Counted from the stretch's first letter, positions 12,630 through 23,192 are shown. The stretch is DNA of 33,458 nucleotides from Gemmatimonadota bacterium (GCA_018969225.1 JAGWYS010000013.1:1-33458); one strand, 5' to 3'. Made by a program: numbers and translations. Notes: a model not told the origin generated them from the sequence alone.

Positions 12630-13130
12630 ATGAGCCGCTCCGTCCATTTTGAGCCCGAGCCCGGGGCCCGGGAGGGCGCACCCGGCATCATCGTGCCCAC
12701 GCCGGCGCTGATCATGGCGGCCGCCCTGGTGGTGGTGGTGATCGGCTTGGCCGTGGCCGCCCGCTGGTTCAACACGGGGGCCTTCCGCGAGACCACGGCG
12801 GCCGTGGCCGTGGAGCGGTCGCTCCGCTTCACCGATGCCCTCGACGGGGGGATCCTGGTCACCGACGGCACCACCGGCGTTGAGGCCGCGGCGCTCCCCC
12901 CGGGTACCAATGGGTTCCTCCGTGGCGCGCTGCGCACCTTGTCACGCGCCCGGCGGGCCGCAGGGCTGGGCTCCGAGGCCCCCTTCCGGTTGGTGCGCTA
13001 CGTGGATGGGCGGCTGTTGCTGCACGACCCCGCCACCGGCCAGCACGTCACCATCACCAGCTTCGGCCCCACCCAGGTGGCGGCCTTCGATCGGCTGCTC
13101 CCGCCGGCGCCCGTTCCCGCGCGCCCGTAG
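12630..13130 (+). CDS. puhC: Photosynthetic complex assembly protein PuhC
   Basis: Single TM after short cytoplasmic N-terminus; RSLRFTDALDGGILVTDGTTG...FLRGALRTLSRARRAAGLGSEAPFRLVRYVDGRLLLHDPATGQHVTITSFGPTQVAAF typical of PuhC. Confidence 0.92.
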   Translation: MSRSVHFEPEPGAREGAPGIIVPTPALIMAAALVVVVIGLAVAARWFNTGAFRETTAAVAVERSLRFTDALDGGILVTDGTTGVEAAALPPGTNGFLRGALRTLSRARRAAGLGSEAPFRLVRYVDGRLLLHDPATGQHVTITSFGPTQVAAFDRLLPPAPVPARP

Positions 13131-13181: not shown

Positions 13182-14996
13182 TCAACGCCGGCGCGGCAGA
13201 GTGGATGGTGGGGCGGGCGGTGGAGCGCCGTCGGCAGGTTCCCGCGTCCCGCGTCCCGGGATCGCCACGGCGCACGCGATGTCTTCGCCGGTGCGCAGCC
13301 GCCGATAGAACACCAGGTTCACCGTCACCGCCAATGCGCCGCCGGGTTCGAATCGTCCGGTCAAGCGGGTCGTGAGCGCCGTGCTGCTGCGCGCCTGGTC
13401 GGGGACGATGCGAAACGTGGACGCGAAAAATCCATCCGGATCGATGGTGCTGGGGAACGTGTCCCCACCGAGGAACGCCACCACCAGCGTGTCCGCACCG
13501 GGCTCATGCCGCACTTCGGCGCGTTCCAGGCTCCCCGGCTCCCGGCGCCAGGCATCCCGGCACGCCGAGGACCCTTCCACTTGCGGGAGGCCAAAGCGGA
13601 CGGCATAGGCCCCCCCCACCCCGCGTCCGCGCGGCGTGGCCAGGTCGGCGGCGCGTCGTGGGCGCGAGGTTGGCAGGCGCGCGCCCGTGCCGGCTGGCGC
13701 GCCGGTGCCTCCCGGGACGCGCGCGGCGGCACGGCTCCCCGTCGCCTCACTCGGGAGCGGGGCACGGAAGCGTACGGTGCTGCCGAATTCGGTGATGATG
13801 AAGTCCACCGCCTCCTTCCGCACCTCGTGCCGCAGCCCCGTGCGCCGGTCGCGGAACAGCACCGTGCCCGCCCGCACCACCTCCACCGTCCCGCGCCACA
13901 CCTCGCCATCCGCCAGGTGCAACTCGTCGTACGCCGCGCTTGTTGCCGGAGTCGGTGCGCGCCACCGGGCGCCCTCGCCCCCTGCCCGCCGAGGCGGCTG
14001 CACGTACTGCAGGCGTCCGCCATCAGCGGCGACCGGGAGGAGCGTGCCGGTGAGCGACGGGATCCCCGGGCCGCCTGCCCCGGCAGGAGACCCCGGGGCG
14101 GCGGCGGATGACGCTGGCGGGGACGTGGCCCCGGGCACGGACGGCGATGGTGCCGCCTGGGTGGCATCCGCCAGAGGGGCGGGCGCAGCTGGCGTGTCAC
14201 GAGGCCCCCCGCCATTCCCTTGCACGATGCCGCGGGCCGGCGCTAGGGCGGTGGCCTGCGCACCCCCATCCGCCGATGGCGTGCCTGCCACCTGGATGCC
14301 GAAGGCCACCGTCAACACGCCGACCGCCGCCAGCAACAGGCGCGGAATCTGCGGATTGATGGGGGCGGCGCCGCGTAGCAGACCGGGAGGGGCTCCGCGC
14401 GGCATCCACGCCGGCGTCGCGCGCAGCGCCGAGGACGCCGCCGCCGTGGCGACGGGCACGCGCGCGGTCGGGGGGCGCCACGGGCGGCGCCCGGCGGGTG
14501 TGCCGGTGCCAAGGGCGCCGCCGGTGGACCCCGGGAGCGCCCCACCGGAGGAGCCGCCACTTCCCGTGCTGGCGCTGCCGGCGGCCGACGCCACCGCTGC
14601 CGCGGGACGGGCAGGCGGCGGGGGGGCGGGAGGGGCCACCCGCACCCGCTCGGGCTCGATCACCCCCAGCGCCACGCCCCAGCACTCGGCCGCCCACCGC
14701 GCCATGTCCGGCTGCACGAAGCGTTCGGCGCTCCAGTGCATCACGAACGGCGTGAGCAGCCCGTCCCACCGCGGATCTCCCGCACGCACCTGTGCCAGGC
14801 GCTGGCACCACCCCCGTCGTGCCGCCTCCGTCAACAGCTCGGCGTAGGGGCGGTAGTCGCTCCCCGTGCGATCGAGCAGCCGATTGCGGAACACCTCCAG
14901 CGACGGCAGGCTCCATCCCGCGGGGTCGTCGCGCACCAGCTCCCGCAACGCCTCGCGCAGCCGCACGCGCGGGTCGTGCGCTCGCGGGTCGGTCAT
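13182..14996 (-). CDS. Hypothetical membrane protein (604 aa) with N-terminal helical domain, low-complexity linkers, one TM segment and beta-rich C-terminal region
   Basis: From ATG at 14996 (MTDPRAHDPRVRLREALRELVRDDPAGWSLPSLEVFRNRLL...RWAAECWGVALGV); TM PRLLLAAVGVLTVAFGIQVAG; ATGA overlap with the upstream kinase gene. Confidence 0.75.
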   Translation of the reverse strand: MTDPRAHDPRVRLREALRELVRDDPAGWSLPSLEVFRNRLLDRTGSDYRPYAELLTEAARRGWCQRLAQVRAGDPRWDGLLTPFVMHWSAERFVQPDMARWAAECWGVALGVIEPERVRVAPPAPPPPARPAAAVASAAGSASTGSGGSSGGALPGSTGGALGTGTPAGRRPWRPPTARVPVATAAASSALRATPAWMPRGAPPGLLRGAAPINPQIPRLLLAAVGVLTVAFGIQVAGTPSADGGAQATALAPARGIVQGNGGGPRDTPAAPAPLADATQAAPSPSVPGATSPPASSAAAPGSPAGAGGPGIPSLTGTLLPVAADGGRLQYVQPPRRAGGEGARWRAPTPATSAAYDELHLADGEVWRGTVEVVRAGTVLFRDRRTGLRHEVRKEAVDFIITEFGSTVRFRAPLPSEATGSRAAARVPGGTGAPAGTGARLPTSRPRRAADLATPRGRGVGGAYAVRFGLPQVEGSSACRDAWRREPGSLERAEVRHEPGADTLVVAFLGGDTFPSTIDPDGFFASTFRIVPDQARSSTALTTRLTGRFEPGGALAVTVNLVFYRRLRTGEDIACAVAIPGRGTREPADGAPPPAPPSTLPRRR

Positions 14997-16459
14997 GGAA
15001 TCGGGCGCCCGCTGCGCGTGTCCAGCCGCTGCAGCTGCAGCACCCGGGCCGGCCACGACTCGCCCGCGGTGATGCGCGTCCCCGGCAGCGCCTCCACCAT
15101 CCCGTTGCGCCGTACCATGGCGGCCTCCCCGCCACCGGGGCGGACCACCTGCCACGGCTGGTCGTCGGTGCTCACCACCCACCAGCGTCCCTGGTGCTGC
15201 GATACGTACCCGCGGGGCGTGCGGTCGGCGCGTTCATCGGGGACCACCCCCACGCGCAGGTGCCAGTCGTGGAGCCGCAGGTGGTGGAACAGCGCCAGGT
15301 GGTCCCCCTCTTCCAGCACGTCGCGTCCGGTGTCGCGCTGGAGGCGTGCCACCAGGAGGGTGTCGGGGATCGGCTCGCTGGCAGGCCACGCCTGCGCCGG
15401 GGCGCCTGGGAACGCCAAGATCCACCCCCCCGACGGCGTGGGCACCAGCCATTGCAGCGTGCGGTACAGCGCCCGCTCCCAATCCGCCGCGTCGGCGCGC
15501 CGTGCCGGGGCGTGCAGCCCTTCCACGAAGGTGCGCTCCACGCACTGGGCCAGCGCCGCCCCCAGCGCCGCGTAGCGCCGGTCCAGCGGTGCCACGGGCG
15601 GGTTGCGCCGGTCGGTGGGGTGCTCCACGAACAGCGCGCATGCCCCCATCGAGAGGCGCTCGTCCTCCTCGGCCGAGCGCGTGCTGTTCACTCGGCGCCC
15701 CTGCAGCGGATGGCGCTGCAGCAGCAGCTCGTAGATGAGCACCGCCAGCGCATGGCGGTCGGTGGCGATGGACGGGTGCGCCTTGCCGGCCAGCACCTCG
15801 GGGGCGATGTACCCGGGGGTGCCCAGCACCGACGGCGGGGCGATGCCGGGCACCACCAGCGCGTCAATGTCGATGAGGCACGCATCCCCGCTGCGCGGGT
15901 CCACCAGCACGTTCTTGTGCGACAGGTCCGCGTGCGCCAGCCCGGCCATGTGCAGGCGCCGCACGGCCCGCGCCACCCGCACCGCCACCTGCAGGCGGGT
16001 GAGGAGCGTCCCCGCCTCCTCGCGCGGGACGAAGCGCGACGCCTTCCCGCCGGTGAACCAGCGGACTTCCTTCTCCTGCCGCTGCCCGAAACGGTCGGTG
16101 AAGTAGAAGCCGGGGCGATAGGCGGGGGTGACCACACCCAGCGGTGGCCACACCAGTTGCTGCGCCTGGGCGAAGCTCCGGGGGAGGGCGCGCTCGCCGT
16201 CGGCAATCCCCACGGGCCAGCAGAAGGCGCGCGCCCAGTAGTCGCCGGTGGCCTCCGCCAGCGTGGGGTTGTAGGTGGTGAGGATGCGGGTCAGCCGATC
16301 GGTGCGCTCACGCCGATCGGCGAGGTGCCCATGGTAGAAGCCCACGGCATACTGGCGGTCGCGCGTCAGGAAGACGCGCTTTTCCGCTCCCGTCCCCACC
16401 GGCTCGTCCTCGAGCTCGAGGACGCGCCCGTCGGTCAGCGTGCAGCGGATGCCAGCCAT
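14993..16459 (-). CDS. Protein kinase-like protein (Ser/Thr kinase fold) of a TerY-P-like cassette
   Basis: Catalytic-loop motif LAHADLSHKNVLVD, metal-binding IDIDALVVPG, activation segment GTPGYIAPEVLAGK, TDRHALAVLIYELLLQRHPLQG. Confidence 0.88.
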   Translation of the reverse strand: MAGIRCTLTDGRVLELEDEPVGTGAEKRVFLTRDRQYAVGFYHGHLADRRERTDRLTRILTTYNPTLAEATGDYWARAFCWPVGIADGERALPRSFAQAQQLVWPPLGVVTPAYRPGFYFTDRFGQRQEKEVRWFTGGKASRFVPREEAGTLLTRLQVAVRVARAVRRLHMAGLAHADLSHKNVLVDPRSGDACLIDIDALVVPGIAPPSVLGTPGYIAPEVLAGKAHPSIATDRHALAVLIYELLLQRHPLQGRRVNSTRSAEEDERLSMGACALFVEHPTDRRNPPVAPLDRRYAALGAALAQCVERTFVEGLHAPARRADAADWERALYRTLQWLVPTPSGGWILAFPGAPAQAWPASEPIPDTLLVARLQRDTGRDVLEEGDHLALFHHLRLHDWHLRVGVVPDERADRTPRGYVSQHQGRWWVVSTDDQPWQVVRPGGGEAAMVRRNGMVEALPGTRITAGESWPARVLQLQRLDTRSGRPIP

Positions 16460-17391
16460 GCGCGGGAACCGGGGGGGCGCACCAGCGCGAGGGTGCGATC
16501 GTCGTTCTCGCCGCGCCGTTCGAAGCCCAACCAGGCCACCAGCGCCGCCGCCGGATCGGCCGCGGTCAGGACCCCGCCGTTGTCAGCGACCGCGGCGGGG
16601 AGCGTGAGCCCGGTGGGGACGGTGCCGGCGGGGGGCGATGCCCCCGCCAGGGAGGCCAGCAGTCCGGGCGCCGTGCGCGCCAGCGGATACCACGGGTCCT
16701 CCACGCCGTCGGTGGCCAGCAGCAGCACCTCGTCGGCAGACGGGGGCAGCGCCGTGACCGAGGCCAGCAGGGCCTCCAGCGCGCCGGGATCCGGGAGGAA
16801 GTGCGACACCTCCCCCGCGTACTCGCCGCCATGTCCCGCCACGGGCTGTCGGAAGCCGTCCGCTGGGGTTCCGCAGATGATGGCGCCGTCACCCACCTGC
16901 ATCACGGCCCGTGCCGAGCCGCGTCCCGCCGCCACCAGCAGCGTGGTGCGCAGCGCGCGGGGGTCGCACGGGGCCCGTTCCGCCAGCCACGCGAGCGCCT
17001 GCTGGGCGGCGTGCGCCCCTCGCGCCAGCGCGTCCTCCAGCGCGACCTCCGGCATGGCCAGCGCGGCCGCCACGGCATGGGCGGCACACTCAGCCGCCGT
17101 AAACGATCCCAGGCGGCTGTGCGCCGCGGATCCGGCGCCATCGGCCACGGCCACGCACCAGCCGTGTGCTTCCGCACGCCACGCGGCGGCGTCCTCGCGG
17201 TGGGCGCCGCGGTGGGCGTGCAGCCGCCCACGCCGACTGGCCAGCAGCAGTTGCCACCCATCGGGGAGTCGGATGTCGGCCGACCGCTCGTCGCCGGCCG
17301 CCTCCTCCACGGGGCACGCTGGCGGGAGCACGGCCACCAGCGCCGCGCGCCACTCCTCGGGGCACCAGGGGGTCGCCGGGGGGAGCGACAC
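16435..17391 (-). CDS. PP2C-family serine/threonine protein phosphatase
   Basis: Metal-binding motifs VAVADGAGSAAHSRLGS, VMQVGDGAIIC, LLLATDGVEDPW, RGENDDRTLALV. N-terminal start uncertain. Confidence 0.88.
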   Translation of the reverse strand: MSLPPATPWCPEEWRAALVAVLPPACPVEEAAGDERSADIRLPDGWQLLLASRRGRLHAHRGAHREDAAAWRAEAHGWCVAVADGAGSAAHSRLGSFTAAECAAHAVAAALAMPEVALEDALARGAHAAQQALAWLAERAPCDPRALRTTLLVAAGRGSARAVMQVGDGAIICGTPADGFRQPVAGHGGEYAGEVSHFLPDPGALEALLASVTALPPSADEVLLLATDGVEDPWYPLARTAPGLLASLAGASPPAGTVPTGLTLPAAVADNGGVLTAADPAAALVAWLGFERRGENDDRTLALVRPPGSRAWLASAAR

Positions 17392-17435
17392 CCAGGTGGC
17401 GGGCGCGGGCGCGCTTGGGGGAACGGGCGGGGTGC

Positions 17436-18071
17436 TCAGGGGACGATCGTGATGCCGGGGGGCGGGGGCGGGAGGGTGATCCCGTCGCCGTCACTGAGCG
17501 CCCCCACCTTGGCGCTGGTCTGCTTCACCGAGGCGGAGACGAAGCGGAAGAACGCCTTGAACGCATCCGGTGACATGTCCTGCATGCGGATGACGCTTTC
17601 GGTGACCTGCTTGAGGACCGTCGCGTCCGCCTGGTCGCCGCAGGCCACGGCGATGATGTTGGCGGGGCGCCGGTCGTGCAGTTGTTGGGCGTACCGGGGC
17701 CAGTCCACGTCGGTGGGGGCGCCGTCGGAGAGGATGAACACCAGCGGGCGCCAATCCCCCTTGGCATCCGGGGTGGTGCGCACCAGTTCGCGGTCGAAGA
17801 GGTCCAAGAGGAGCCGGAGCCCGTCGCCGAAGTTGGTGTTGCCGGTGGCCACGAGGTCCGGCGGGGTGAACAGGGCGACCTCCGTGAGGGGCACCACCTG
17901 CGCGGCGCGGTCGGCGAAGGTGCACACGGAGAGGTAGGCGCTCTCGATGGCCTGCGGGTCCCCGAGGAGGTCGCGGTGGAGCTGGCGGATCCCGGAGTTG
18001 ACGGACTCGATCGGGGTGCCGCGCATGGAGCCGGAGACGTCGGCGAGGATGTAGACCGGAAGGCGGCGCAT
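17436..18071 (-). CDS. TerY-like von Willebrand factor A (vWA) domain protein
   Basis: MRRLPVYILADVSGSMRGTPIESVNSGIRQLHRDL...GNTNFGDGLRLLLDLF...FILSDGAPTDVDWPRYAQQL; MIDAS DxSxS present. Confidence 0.9.
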   Translation of the reverse strand: MRRLPVYILADVSGSMRGTPIESVNSGIRQLHRDLLGDPQAIESAYLSVCTFADRAAQVVPLTEVALFTPPDLVATGNTNFGDGLRLLLDLFDRELVRTTPDAKGDWRPLVFILSDGAPTDVDWPRYAQQLHDRRPANIIAVACGDQADATVLKQVTESVIRMQDMSPDAFKAFFRFVSASVKQTSAKVGALSDGDGITLPPPPPGITIVP

Positions 18072-18225
18072 GGGCTGGGGCGCGTGAGGGGGAGGACGGG
18101 GCAGCGGCGCCCGCGGACACCCCGGGATTGGCCCCGGGACGCTCCGCAGGGGTGAATGCACGGCCGGTCCCCGGGGTTTCGACAGGGAAGAGCCCCCGGC
18201 CAACCAGACCCGCCCGGATGCGCAA

Positions 18226-18255
18226 GGCCCCGTGACGCCAGGGCGCCACGGGGCC
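18226..18255. terminator. Strong GC hairpin downstream of pufC (candidate terminator or mRNA-stabilising hairpin)
   Basis: GGCCCCGTG-acgccagggcgc-CACGGGGCC, perfect 9-bp stem about 60 nt past the pufC stop. Confidence 0.55.
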
Positions 18256-18312
18256 GGGGCCGCGCTGCGGGCCAATGGCCCTGTGCGCGGTACGCTGGGG
18301 GGAGCGAGCTCC

Positions 18313-19404
18313 CTAGGGGAGTGTGCCTCCGTCACCCACGACGGGGGCCGATCCGCCCCGGCGGGCGCTGGCCTTGGTGGCCGGCGCGGCAGCCGGGGTG
18401 GGCATGGCGGGGGCGGCCGCGGAATCCAGGGTCGGCACCAGCGACGGGAAGGGCACCCCGTTCCACTCGCTGCGTCCCCAGAGCGCCGGGTAGTGCTTGA
18501 CCATCTGCGCGCCGTAGAGCGGCTTGTACGCCCCGTTGTGGCAGGTGACGCACTGCGCCTTGGGGGCGTCGCCCATCTTGCCGAGGCGGACCGCCGGATA
18601 GACGGGCTGCAGGGGGGCCAGGTAGTTCACGTTCACGTCGCGCACCATGAGGATGCCGTGGTACGCCGTGACGCGCGCCGGGGGCGCCTCTGCCCAGCTG
18701 GCGAACTGCCGGGTGTTGTGGCAGTAGGTGCAGTTGACCCCCAGCGACCGCGACTGCGAGATCATGAGGGCGTGCGTCCACTCCGTCTGCTTGACCGAGC
18801 TGCGATTGGCGTTGCTCGGGGACACGCTCTTGGAGATGACGCGCGCGCCGTCGCGGTCGAGGTAGTGGCGGAGGTAGTCGGTCTGGCTGCTGTAGAACCA
18901 GAGGCCGTTGGGGAGCGGCTTCCCCTGGTGGCAGGTGTAGCAGGTGACGCCGGTGTTCTTGACGTGCTGGCTGTACTGGCCGTTGATGTGGCGCGTCATC
19001 TGGAGCATGCGCCGGGCGACCAGCTTGGTGTACAGCGGCTTGCCGTCGTTGGAGGTGTCGGCGGCGAGGTTGGCGATGTTGTGGCAGTACGCGCAGTTCC
19101 CGGTGCCGGCCACCCAGGTGCTCATGGCGATCATCGTGCGGTTGAACTCCGCGACGCTGATGTCGTTGAGCACCTGGACGTTCTTCCACGGGAGGGGGCC
19201 CGGCGGGGAGCCCCCCGCCGGAGGGAGGGGCGCGGGGATCTTGACCGCGGCGAACTTGGCCTTGAGGTCGCCGCGGTTGTAGTTCTGCTCCAGCGCCGTC
19301 CCCCGGTACCCCACCTGCACGCTGTCCGTGTTGTGGTCGCCGCAGCCGACGGCGGCGAGGAGGAGGGCCGGCAGCAGCCGGCCCGCGCGGAATCGCGTCA
19401 TCAT
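18313..19404 (-). CDS. pufC: Reaction centre tetraheme cytochrome c subunit (lipoprotein)
   Basis: Lipobox-like LLLAAVGC; four CxxCH motifs (CAYCH, CYTCH, CTYCH, CVTCH); downstream of pufM with ATGA overlap. Confidence 0.96.
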
Positions 19405-21533: not shown

Positions 21534-21752
21534 CTACCGGCCGGGAGGCAGGGGTGCCATCTCCGGTGCCGCCGGGGCCGCCACTCCAGCCCCAACCGGC
21601 GCCTGCGCGGCCGCCAGCGTCCCGTTCTCGATCCACGAGTAGCGCTGCGAACTGAGCAGGATGAAGTGGATGGTCAACGCCAGCACCGCCAGGAAGCCCG
21701 TGAGGGCCACCAGGACGCGGCGTGGGTCGAACATCAACCAGATGCGATGCAT
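21534..21752 (-). CDS. pufA: Light-harvesting 1 alpha polypeptide with Ala/Pro-rich C-terminal tail
   Basis: [44 protein letters not shown]..., classic LH1 alpha with central His. Confidence 0.95.
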
Positions 21753-21761
21753 GATGGCTCC

Positions 21762-21932
21762 TTACTTGACGGCGGTCGGGGACGCCGTGTTGGCGTACTT
21801 GGCCTTGAGGGACGCCGGCCAGTTGAACTGGCTGAACGCCCACATGTGCATGAACAGCACCGCGCCCACGACGAACGCGCCGACCCCCATCAACGCCTGA
21901 TGCGGATCCAGCCCAACCCAGACTCTGTGCAT
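21762..21932 (-). CDS. Second light-harvesting alpha-like polypeptide (56 aa)
   Basis: Read from reverse strand (not listed as its own ORF in the track): MHRVWVGLDPHQALMGVGAFVVGAVLFMHMWAFSQFNWPASLKAKYANTASPTAVK*; preceded by AGGAGAGACC; single TM with His as potential BChl ligand; between pufB and pufA. Confidence 0.88.
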   Translation of the reverse strand: MHRVWVGLDPHQALMGVGAFVVGAVLFMHMWAFSQFNWPASLKAKYANTASPTAVK

Positions 21933-21957: not shown

Positions 21958-22092
21958 TTAGAACCAGGGGCGCCAGCGCCACGCCAGCATGTGCGCCATC
22001 ACCGCGACGGCGACCCACGCAAGCGTGTAGGTCACCATGTAACCGTGGAAGCGGCGCGCCTCCTCCTCGGTCATTCCGCCCTTGTCCGACAT
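21958..22092 (-). CDS. pufB: Light-harvesting 1 beta polypeptide
   Basis: MSDKGGMTEEEARRFHGYMVTYTLAWVAVAVMAHMLAWRWRPWF*, typical beta with terminal W-RPWF; ATG at 22092. Confidence 0.95.
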   Translation of the reverse strand: MSDKGGMTEEEARRFHGYMVTYTLAWVAVAVMAHMLAWRWRPWF

Positions 22093-22186
22093 CGTGCCTC
22101 CGAAGTGCGTTGCTGCCACGCTCATCCCGCGTGGCCGGGATGCCGCCCCCCTGACCGGGGGAACGGCGGACCATTCTGGCTCCGGG

Positions 22187-22204
22187 TGTAACTTGGACCT
22201 GACA
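22187..22204. promoter_or_regulatory. PpsR/CrtJ-type box TGT-N12-ACA upstream of pufB
   Basis: TGTAACTTGGACCTGACA; minus-strand reading TGTCAGGTCCAAGTTACACC aligns with boxes at 28258 and 29631. Confidence 0.6.
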
Positions 22205-22298
22205 GTCTTACACGTCAAGAAGAAATGACAAAAAAGTTTTGTTCCCGCGTCACCCCCACACCCCTCCCTGTCCCTCCCCTTTCCGTTTCGTCCCTGCC

Positions 22299-23192
22299 AT
22301 GGCCGCTTCGTCCCTTTCCGCCCCCGACAACGACAGCCCCGTTGACTGGCCCCGACGCGAGCGCTCCCACCGCCTCCTCCGTCCGGGGATCGCGTGGGGG
22401 CTCACGCGGGAGGGGGAGGGACCCCTCCTCCTGCTCCTCCACGGCACCGGCGGCAGCAGCCACTCCTGGGCCCCCTGCATCCCCGCCCTCGCGCGGCACT
22501 GCACCGTCCTGACCCTCGATCTCCCGGGGCACGGCTTCACCCGCCTTCTCGCGCGTCCCGCCGGGACCCCTGACCCCCTCGCCCTGCGAGGGATGGCCGC
22601 CGCGGTGGCCGACGTGCTGCAGGCGCTGGATGCGCGTCCGACGGTCGTGGCGGGGCATTCGGCCGGGGTGCCCCTCCTCCTGCGCCTCATCCTCGACGGG
22701 GCCATCGCCCCCGAGCGCGTGGTGGGGATCTGCCCGGCGCTGGTGCCTCCCGAGCCGCTGCTGCAGGCCACGCTGGGCGCCCCGCTGGCGGCCCTCGCCA
22801 CGGCTGCGCCGGTGGCCCGCGCCGGCGCGTGGCTGGCGCGCACCACCGGCGTGGTCCCCGCGATGCTCGCCTCCACCGGCTCCCCCCTCACCCCGGCGCA
22901 GGCGGCGCGCTACGCGTGGCTGTGCACCGACCCGGCGCGCGTGCACGCCGCCCTCGCCATGATGGCGCGCTGGGATCTCCCCGGCGTGCTCCGCGACGCG
23001 CACGCCCTGCGCGTCCCCGTGACGCTGCTGGCGGGCGCGCGCGACCGCTGGGTGCCCCTGGCGGCGCTGCGCCGCGCCGTGGAGCGCTTCCTGCCGCAGG
23101 CCTCGCTCGCGGTGGCTCCGGGGGGACACCTCCTTCCCGAGGAGGATCCGGCGCGCGTGGTGGCGGCCATCCTGGGCGCGCCGCCCCCCTGA
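22299..23192 (+). CDS. bchO: Alpha/beta-hydrolase, BchO-like (putative Mg-chelatase-associated protein)
   Basis: LLLLLHGTGGSSHSWAPCIPALARHCTVLTLDLPGHGFTR...VAGHSAGVPLLLRLILDG; within PGC; 297 aa. Confidence 0.85.
   Translation: MAASSLSAPDNDSPVDWPRRERSHRLLRPGIAWGLTREGEGPLLLLLHGTGGSSHSWAPCIPALARHCTVLTLDLPGHGFTRLLARPAGTPDPLALRGMAAAVADVLQALDARPTVVAGHSAGVPLLLRLILDGAIAPERVVGICPALVPPEPLLQATLGAPLAALATAAPVARAGAWLARTTGVVPAMLASTGSPLTPAQAARYAWLCTDPARVHAALAMMARWDLPGVLRDAHALRVPVTLLAGARDRWVPLAALRRAVERFLPQASLAVAPGGHLLPEEDPARVVAAILGAPPP

Follow-up and report, generated by a model that had tools for sequence, protein, structure and literature searches.

A TerY-P-derived phosphatase and kinase cassette between the puh and puf genes of Gemmatimonadota, a candidate switch for the control of phototrophy

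We describe a four-gene cassette lying between the puh and puf genes of a photosynthesis gene cluster (PGC) in a Gemmatimonadota bacterium (GCA_018969225.1, JAGWYS010000013.1:1-33458). The window analysed is this whole contig (C134, 33,458 nt), within an assembly of 375 contigs. The phylum acquired its photosynthesis genes horizontally, as a complete cluster. The cassette encodes a TerY-like protein with a von Willebrand factor A (vWA) domain, a PP2C phosphatase, a protein kinase and a membrane protein, hereafter orf604 (Table 1). Open reading frame (ORF) calls, Pfam searches and the flanks (pufC, pufM and pufL on one side, puhC and puhB on the other) agree with an initial annotation, made from the sequence alone, in placing four minus-strand genes between puhC and pufC. 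The coordinates also bear out the two overlaps it had reported, of 25 nt between kinase and PP2C (16435-16459) and of 4 nt (ATGA) between kinase and orf604. The same gene order was found at the same place in more than 15 related genomes; because the block recurs in this way and purifying selection acts on all its genes (see below), a chance arrangement is ruled out.

Table 1. Features of the cassette and of its surroundings in the window
Feature	Position	Strand	Evidence
TerY/YegL-like vWA protein, 211 aa, MIDAS intact	17436-18071	minus	Pfam VWA, E 2e-7
PP2C Ser/Thr phosphatase, 318 aa, metal motifs intact	16435-17391	minus	Pfam PP2C_2, E 6e-34
TerY-P/YegI-type protein kinase, 488 aa	14993-16459	minus	Pkinase, E 5e-15
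orf604, single-pass membrane protein (predicted), 604 aa	13182-14996	minus	Alignment, AF2 model, Foldseek
GC-rich terminator-like hairpin 3' of pufC, weak T tract	18225-18256	minus	
pufC, upstream flank of the cassette	18313-19404	minus	NF040706, E 9e-103; overlap with pufM used to infer the start codon
puhC, convergent downstream flank	12630-13130	plus	TIGR03054, E 2e-43
bchB, bchH, bchL, acsF, puhB, puhC (left part of the window)		plus	
After puhC: four cassette genes, then pufC, pufM, pufL, two pufA-like and one pufB-like ORFs, bchY, bchX and others		minus	
Two pufA-like ORFs and one pufB-like ORF	21534-21752, 21762-21932, 21958-22218	minus	
Alpha/beta-hydrolase-like ORF, 317 aa, probably bchO	22239-23192	plus	

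The vWA and PP2C proteins proved to be what the initial annotation had announced, with an intact metal ion-dependent adhesion site (MIDAS) and intact metal motifs, respectively. In translation, the vWA protein keeps the MIDAS motifs DVSGS, TNFG and SDGAPTD, and it matches E. coli YegL (34 % identity, E 1e-24) in addition to the Pfam domain; vWA identity in cassette-carrying relatives is 73-86 %. The phosphatase likewise keeps HRGAHRED, ADGAGS, VGDG, TDGVED and ENDDR, motifs that were also examined in relatives, and matches E. coli PphC (29 %, E 1e-11). A link to Mg-chelatase through the vWA protein was considered and dropped, its sole basis being a vWA domain common to both.

The third protein is a kinase by fold, according to the Pkinase match, an AlphaFold2 (AF2) model (predicted local distance difference test score of 91) and kinase-fold matches in the PDB, with the correction that the usual beta-3 lysine is absent and that an invariant lysine stands in the glycine-rich loop. 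All 22 aligned TerY-P-type kinases (alignment A2) retain HxDLxxxN, DxD and APE. The beta-3 position reads VGF or VAF in 22/22 (VGF in place of VAK in the window kinase); the same set has an invariant Lys27 where the loop would have its third glycine (codon 16379-16381). By sequence, this placement corresponds to the arrangement of WNK kinases, which are active with a lysine relocated to beta-2 (PMC12599244). In a 2025 survey, a kinase of Yersinia that shares these motifs (VVA-, Hsdlsykn, DVD) is assigned to family Yegi1, among the pseudokinases (PMC12599244). The features of Yegi1 (no beta-3 lysine, HsdlsykN catalytic loop, DxD) match the window kinase on motif comparison only, and the lysine pattern of the 22 aligned kinases may extend to this family as a whole. 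The window kinase shows no transmembrane (TM) segment. The zinc-ribbon cysteines on the C-terminal side (C...C...CPxC) are lost in it and are not intact in any aligned Gemmatimonadota kinase; all four are present in kinases of Succinimonas, Planctomyces, Deltaproteobacteria and Rhodobacteraceae. Its AF2 model displays a beta-rich C-terminal region, which could be searched for an oligonucleotide/oligosaccharide-binding (OB) fold only together with the kinase domain.

For orf604, the membrane protein initially announced was recovered with one predicted TM helix, and no match was obtained in Pfam or PDB sequence searches. The model comprises a helical N-terminal domain (4-109), the TM helix (about 216-236), an Sm/Hfq-like small barrel (357-409) and a beta-rich C-terminal domain (462-585) that contains both Cys479 and Cys575, invariant in alignment A3. 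The best Foldseek/PDB match of this last domain, to a fold resembling PsbO of photosystem II, was weak (E 0.003, TM-score 0.25) and is not claimed. In most relatives a related gene, orfX (about 400-510 aa), stands between the kinase gene and orf604; the window genome is without it, and genus g18 possesses a single gene of orf604/orfX type. Relatives of orf604/orfX were found only in cassette genomes.

In TerY-P triads, a vWA protein and a PP2C are joined by a kinase that bears a zinc ribbon on its C-terminal side (PMC11090510, after Anantharaman et al. 2012). These triads are tied to stress and restriction systems and have been hypothesised to be metal-sensing stress switches; versions with an OB fold protect against phages (PMC11090510). 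The cassette shares with them adjacent, co-directional genes for a TerY-like vWA protein with MIDAS, a PP2C and a Ser/Thr kinase, but its kinase is without the zinc-ribbon cysteines and it includes extra single-pass membrane protein(s). Moreover, it has one vWA protein where distant TerY-P relatives have two or three, and its neighbours identified in the window are photosynthesis genes, whereas TerY-P triads stand with Ter, restriction or DNA-processing genes. The TerY-P-like label of the initial annotation therefore holds for composition and gene order and not for the zinc ribbon; judged from these comparisons, the cassette is a variant TerY-P-derived triad, in which the kinase lost its zinc ribbon and which gained one or two membrane proteins bearing an invariant pair of cysteines. 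The order vWA, PP2C, kinase is also that of E. coli yegL-pphC-yegI, with detectable homology for all three proteins. YegI is membrane-bound and autophosphorylates on Ser, and PphC removes that phosphate (PMC13232886); YegI has the usual loop glycine and VAK lysine, and in the cassette the membrane part is a separate protein. The nearest relatives are stand-alone triads of Verrucomicrobia (L077-L081; kinase 46-48 %, vWA 60-64 %), equal in gene order but restricted to three genes, with a longer PP2C, no orf604/orfX and genomes without pufM or bchY. PADLOC returned generic kinase-domain matches only and none for the vWA and PP2C proteins; as YegL and other TerY-like vWA proteins also gave none, its library may lack such a model.

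The distribution of the cassette was surveyed in 200 genomes of the phylum, in 179 genomes of the family and, through short peptide patterns in a scan that was not exhaustive, in one genome per species for 84,980 species. Full-length kinase orthologues occur in nine of the 200 phylum-wide genomes, all nine being pufM-positive. Within the family, 28 genomes carry the kinase and 44 carry pufM, i.e. 27 both, one the kinase only, 17 pufM only and 134 neither (Fisher p ~2e-19, shared ancestry being ignored). The block is accordingly found in many other PGCs, without being universal, and at the same flanks in non-phototrophic relatives it was found in none of the 134 pufM-negative family genomes, to which one ambiguous metagenome-assembled genome (MAG) has to be added; on both of these points, which the initial annotation had named as checks, the outcome is in favour of its reading. 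Within the genus itself, the cassette is carried by 17 of 23 phototrophs and by none of the seven non-phototrophs, and the vWA and orf604/orfX genes occur in essentially the same genomes as the kinase, all or none. The species scan yielded 45 loci, of which 21 in Gemmatimonadota, all but that of the MAG G288 in pufM-positive genomes where checked; the others are triads of Verrucomicrobia, Planctomycetes and Proteobacteria unlinked to puf. A kinase encoded downstream of pufC in G129 was set aside, since it belongs to the ordinary type, prolonged by a long repeat-like segment, and is not that of the cassette.

Phylogenetic analysis of vWA plus kinase grouped the Gemmatimonadota cassettes in one clade (100/99) beside non-phototrophic Verrucomicrobia. 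Genera g1 and g21, and subgroups within g1, come out alike in this tree and in that of pufLM, which indicates that the block was co-inherited with the photosynthesis cluster; the window copy sits on a long branch, its motifs being nonetheless intact. Absences inside g1 (G172, G269/G270, G276 and G258) point to several losses; among phototrophs in general, some lost the cassette or never acquired it. In G181 and G260 the cassette is intact but located outside the PGC, the puf-puh interval of G181 being empty, and this move is secondary because their sister G264 is linked. The three genomes of g18 are phototrophic and also have an unlinked cassette, so that phototrophs retained it after relocation in five genomes of two lineages. 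In G300 (L115, L109), orfX and orf604 lie at the opposite end of the PGC from the vWA and kinase genes, and no PP2C gene was found nearby. Ratios of non-synonymous to synonymous substitution rates (dN/dS) among relatives are lowest for vWA (0.007-0.084), followed by the kinase (0.055-0.12) and by PP2C and orf604 (0.13-0.30), the value of pufL being 0.025-0.061; all parts of the cassette are under purifying selection, and the constraint on vWA is about that on pufL.

Simple read-through from puf, initially suggested as a way to couple the cassette to photosystem expression, is disfavoured. Just after pufC lies a GC-rich hairpin (GGCCCCGTGGCGCC-CTGG-CGTCACGGGGCC) whose T tail is weak, and a strong hairpin stands at this place in nearly every Gemmatimonadota PGC examined, whether or not the cassette is present, its sequence changes being paired. 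The hairpin probably terminates the puf transcript or stabilises it, which makes a promoter of the cassette's own more likely. A scan of the cassette for sigma-70-like promoters gave none and is uninformative at this G+C content. PpsR-type sites (TGT-N12-ACA) number five in the window for 2.2 expected, none of them near the cassette, and the folding of the whole pufC-vWA gap as RNA is not unusual (z -0.9), the local hairpin alone recurring across loci.

The cassette is probably a so far unstudied control switch for phototrophy. We see about an even chance that it is a Ser/Thr phosphorylation module, derived from TerY-P, that was captured by the PGC of Gemmatimonadaceae and has been retained as a means of post-translational control tied to phototrophy. 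In such a module, orf604 (with orfX in relatives) would be the transmembrane sensor, and its periplasmic domain, closed by the invariant cysteine pair, would read the state of the photosynthetic membrane; both this role and the side of the membrane are predicted. The cytosolic helical domain of orf604 would relay the signal to kinase and PP2C, for which the Mg2+-dependent vWA protein would be the assembly scaffold. The kinase would most likely bind ATP through Lys27 of its glycine-rich loop in a WNK-like manner, and together with PP2C it would determine how far photosystem, antenna-assembly or pigment-synthesis proteins are phosphorylated; signal, targets and kinase activity are those that we infer. 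The initial annotation had proposed RC/LH assembly, Mg-chelatase or the redox/light response as possible points of action. Control by other means than transcription is plausible, and a switch acting after translation would close a gap, because G. phototrophica shows minimal transcriptional control of its photosynthesis genes, with a single PpsR site, in a report whose text makes no mention of kinases (PMC11406998). A more ambitious proposal, possible but to be held tentatively, is that a transmembrane Ser/Thr phospho-switch for photosystem assembly or activity, with a WNK-like kinase, replaces the oxygen/light transcriptional control that was not transferred with the PGC. TerY-P/Yegi1 kinases without the usual lysine are predicted to be active via Lys27 and, if the WNK-like relocation is true, a family now listed among pseudokinases would be active. 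Hypothetical genes between puh and puf are reported to be common to the two cultured phototrophs, G. phototrophica and G. groenlandica (PMC7844134). Their location equals that of the cassette, but they were not recognised there as a kinase/phosphatase/vWA module, their distribution and history were not covered, and no identification of the module was found in the literature searched. A kinase/phosphatase/sensor module inside the cluster, present in most phototrophs of the genus, is a concrete candidate for the means by which Gemmatimonadota adjust their photosystems.

Several observations weigh against this role. Phototrophy does not need the cassette, which is lacking in 17 of the 44 family phototrophs and in the five phototrophs of another family. 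One carrier, G288, is an 85 % complete MAG with no pufM, bchY or acsF in its assembly, an exception that is ambiguous because its genus-mate G123 carries bchH, bchL and acsF. The beta-3 lysine is missing from the kinase, whose likely family, Yegi1, is ranked among pseudokinases (PMC12599244). Informative unlinked cases come from two lineages only, and linkage alone explains much of the co-occurrence. A cassette-less phototroph, G239, has unrelated genes in its puf-puh interval (L108:12633-16543), and our literature search found no expression, phosphorylation or mutant data on the cassette.

As separate observations on two of these genomes, pufM was not found in G123 (L116, genus g16) and no puh was seen after acsF, either because its PGC is broken or rearranged or because the assembly has a gap. 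The pufC-puhC interval of G239 holds two genes, one for a kinase-like membrane protein of 657 aa and one for a protein of 446 aa.

A serious rival, which we take to be a real though lesser possibility, is that a TerY-P module of the stress or defence type sits as a passenger in the puf-puh interval, which looks insertion-prone, and travels with the PGC by linkage, performing its usual function with no role in phototrophy. The ties of TerY-P triads to stress and restriction and the antiphage activity of OB-fold versions (PMC11090510) fit this explanation, as do the other genes filling the same interval in G239, the non-phototrophic lifestyle of the closest outside relatives and the dispensability of the cassette, absent from the g1 genomes listed above and from g2 phototrophs. 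A mere passenger is harder to reconcile with its retention, in two separate unlinked lineages, only in phototrophs, with the absence of any carrier among near-complete non-phototrophs of the family, and with congruent vertical inheritance under very strong constraint on vWA and kinase. Furthermore, no defence genes were recognised in the window, and the added membrane proteins occur only with the cassette.

It is rather unlikely, in our view, that the module acts indirectly by handling envelope or redox stress arising from light harvesting (reactive oxygen, intracytoplasmic membranes) without addressing photosystem or pigment proteins. The two invariant cysteines of the membrane protein, predicted to face the periplasm, the hypothesis that TerY-P is a metal-sensing stress switch and the losses in some phototrophs, which suit an accessory role, would be consistent with this; most carriers, though, have the module inside the PGC, next to puf and puh, which points to a more direct connection, and no stress genes lie nearby. 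Finally, an assembly scaffold built on an inactive kinase, with PP2C alone catalytic, would account for the missing beta-3 lysine and the Yegi1 motifs, but is very improbable given Lys27 and the HxDLxxxN, DxD and APE motifs kept throughout the alignment, the activity of WNK kinases with their displaced lysine (PMC12599244), and an adjacent PP2C that would be left without a partner kinase.

Elsewhere in the window, the presence of two pufA-like ORFs and one pufB-like ORF (Table 1) matches the gene set reported with the double antenna ring of Gemmatimonas (PMC12817894). A link of the cassette to the second pufA was considered and set aside, since pufA2 is also reported from Pseudogemmatithrix (PMC12817894), a genus that may be the cassette-less g2. 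The probable bchO lies on the opposite strand, between the puf operon and bchZ.

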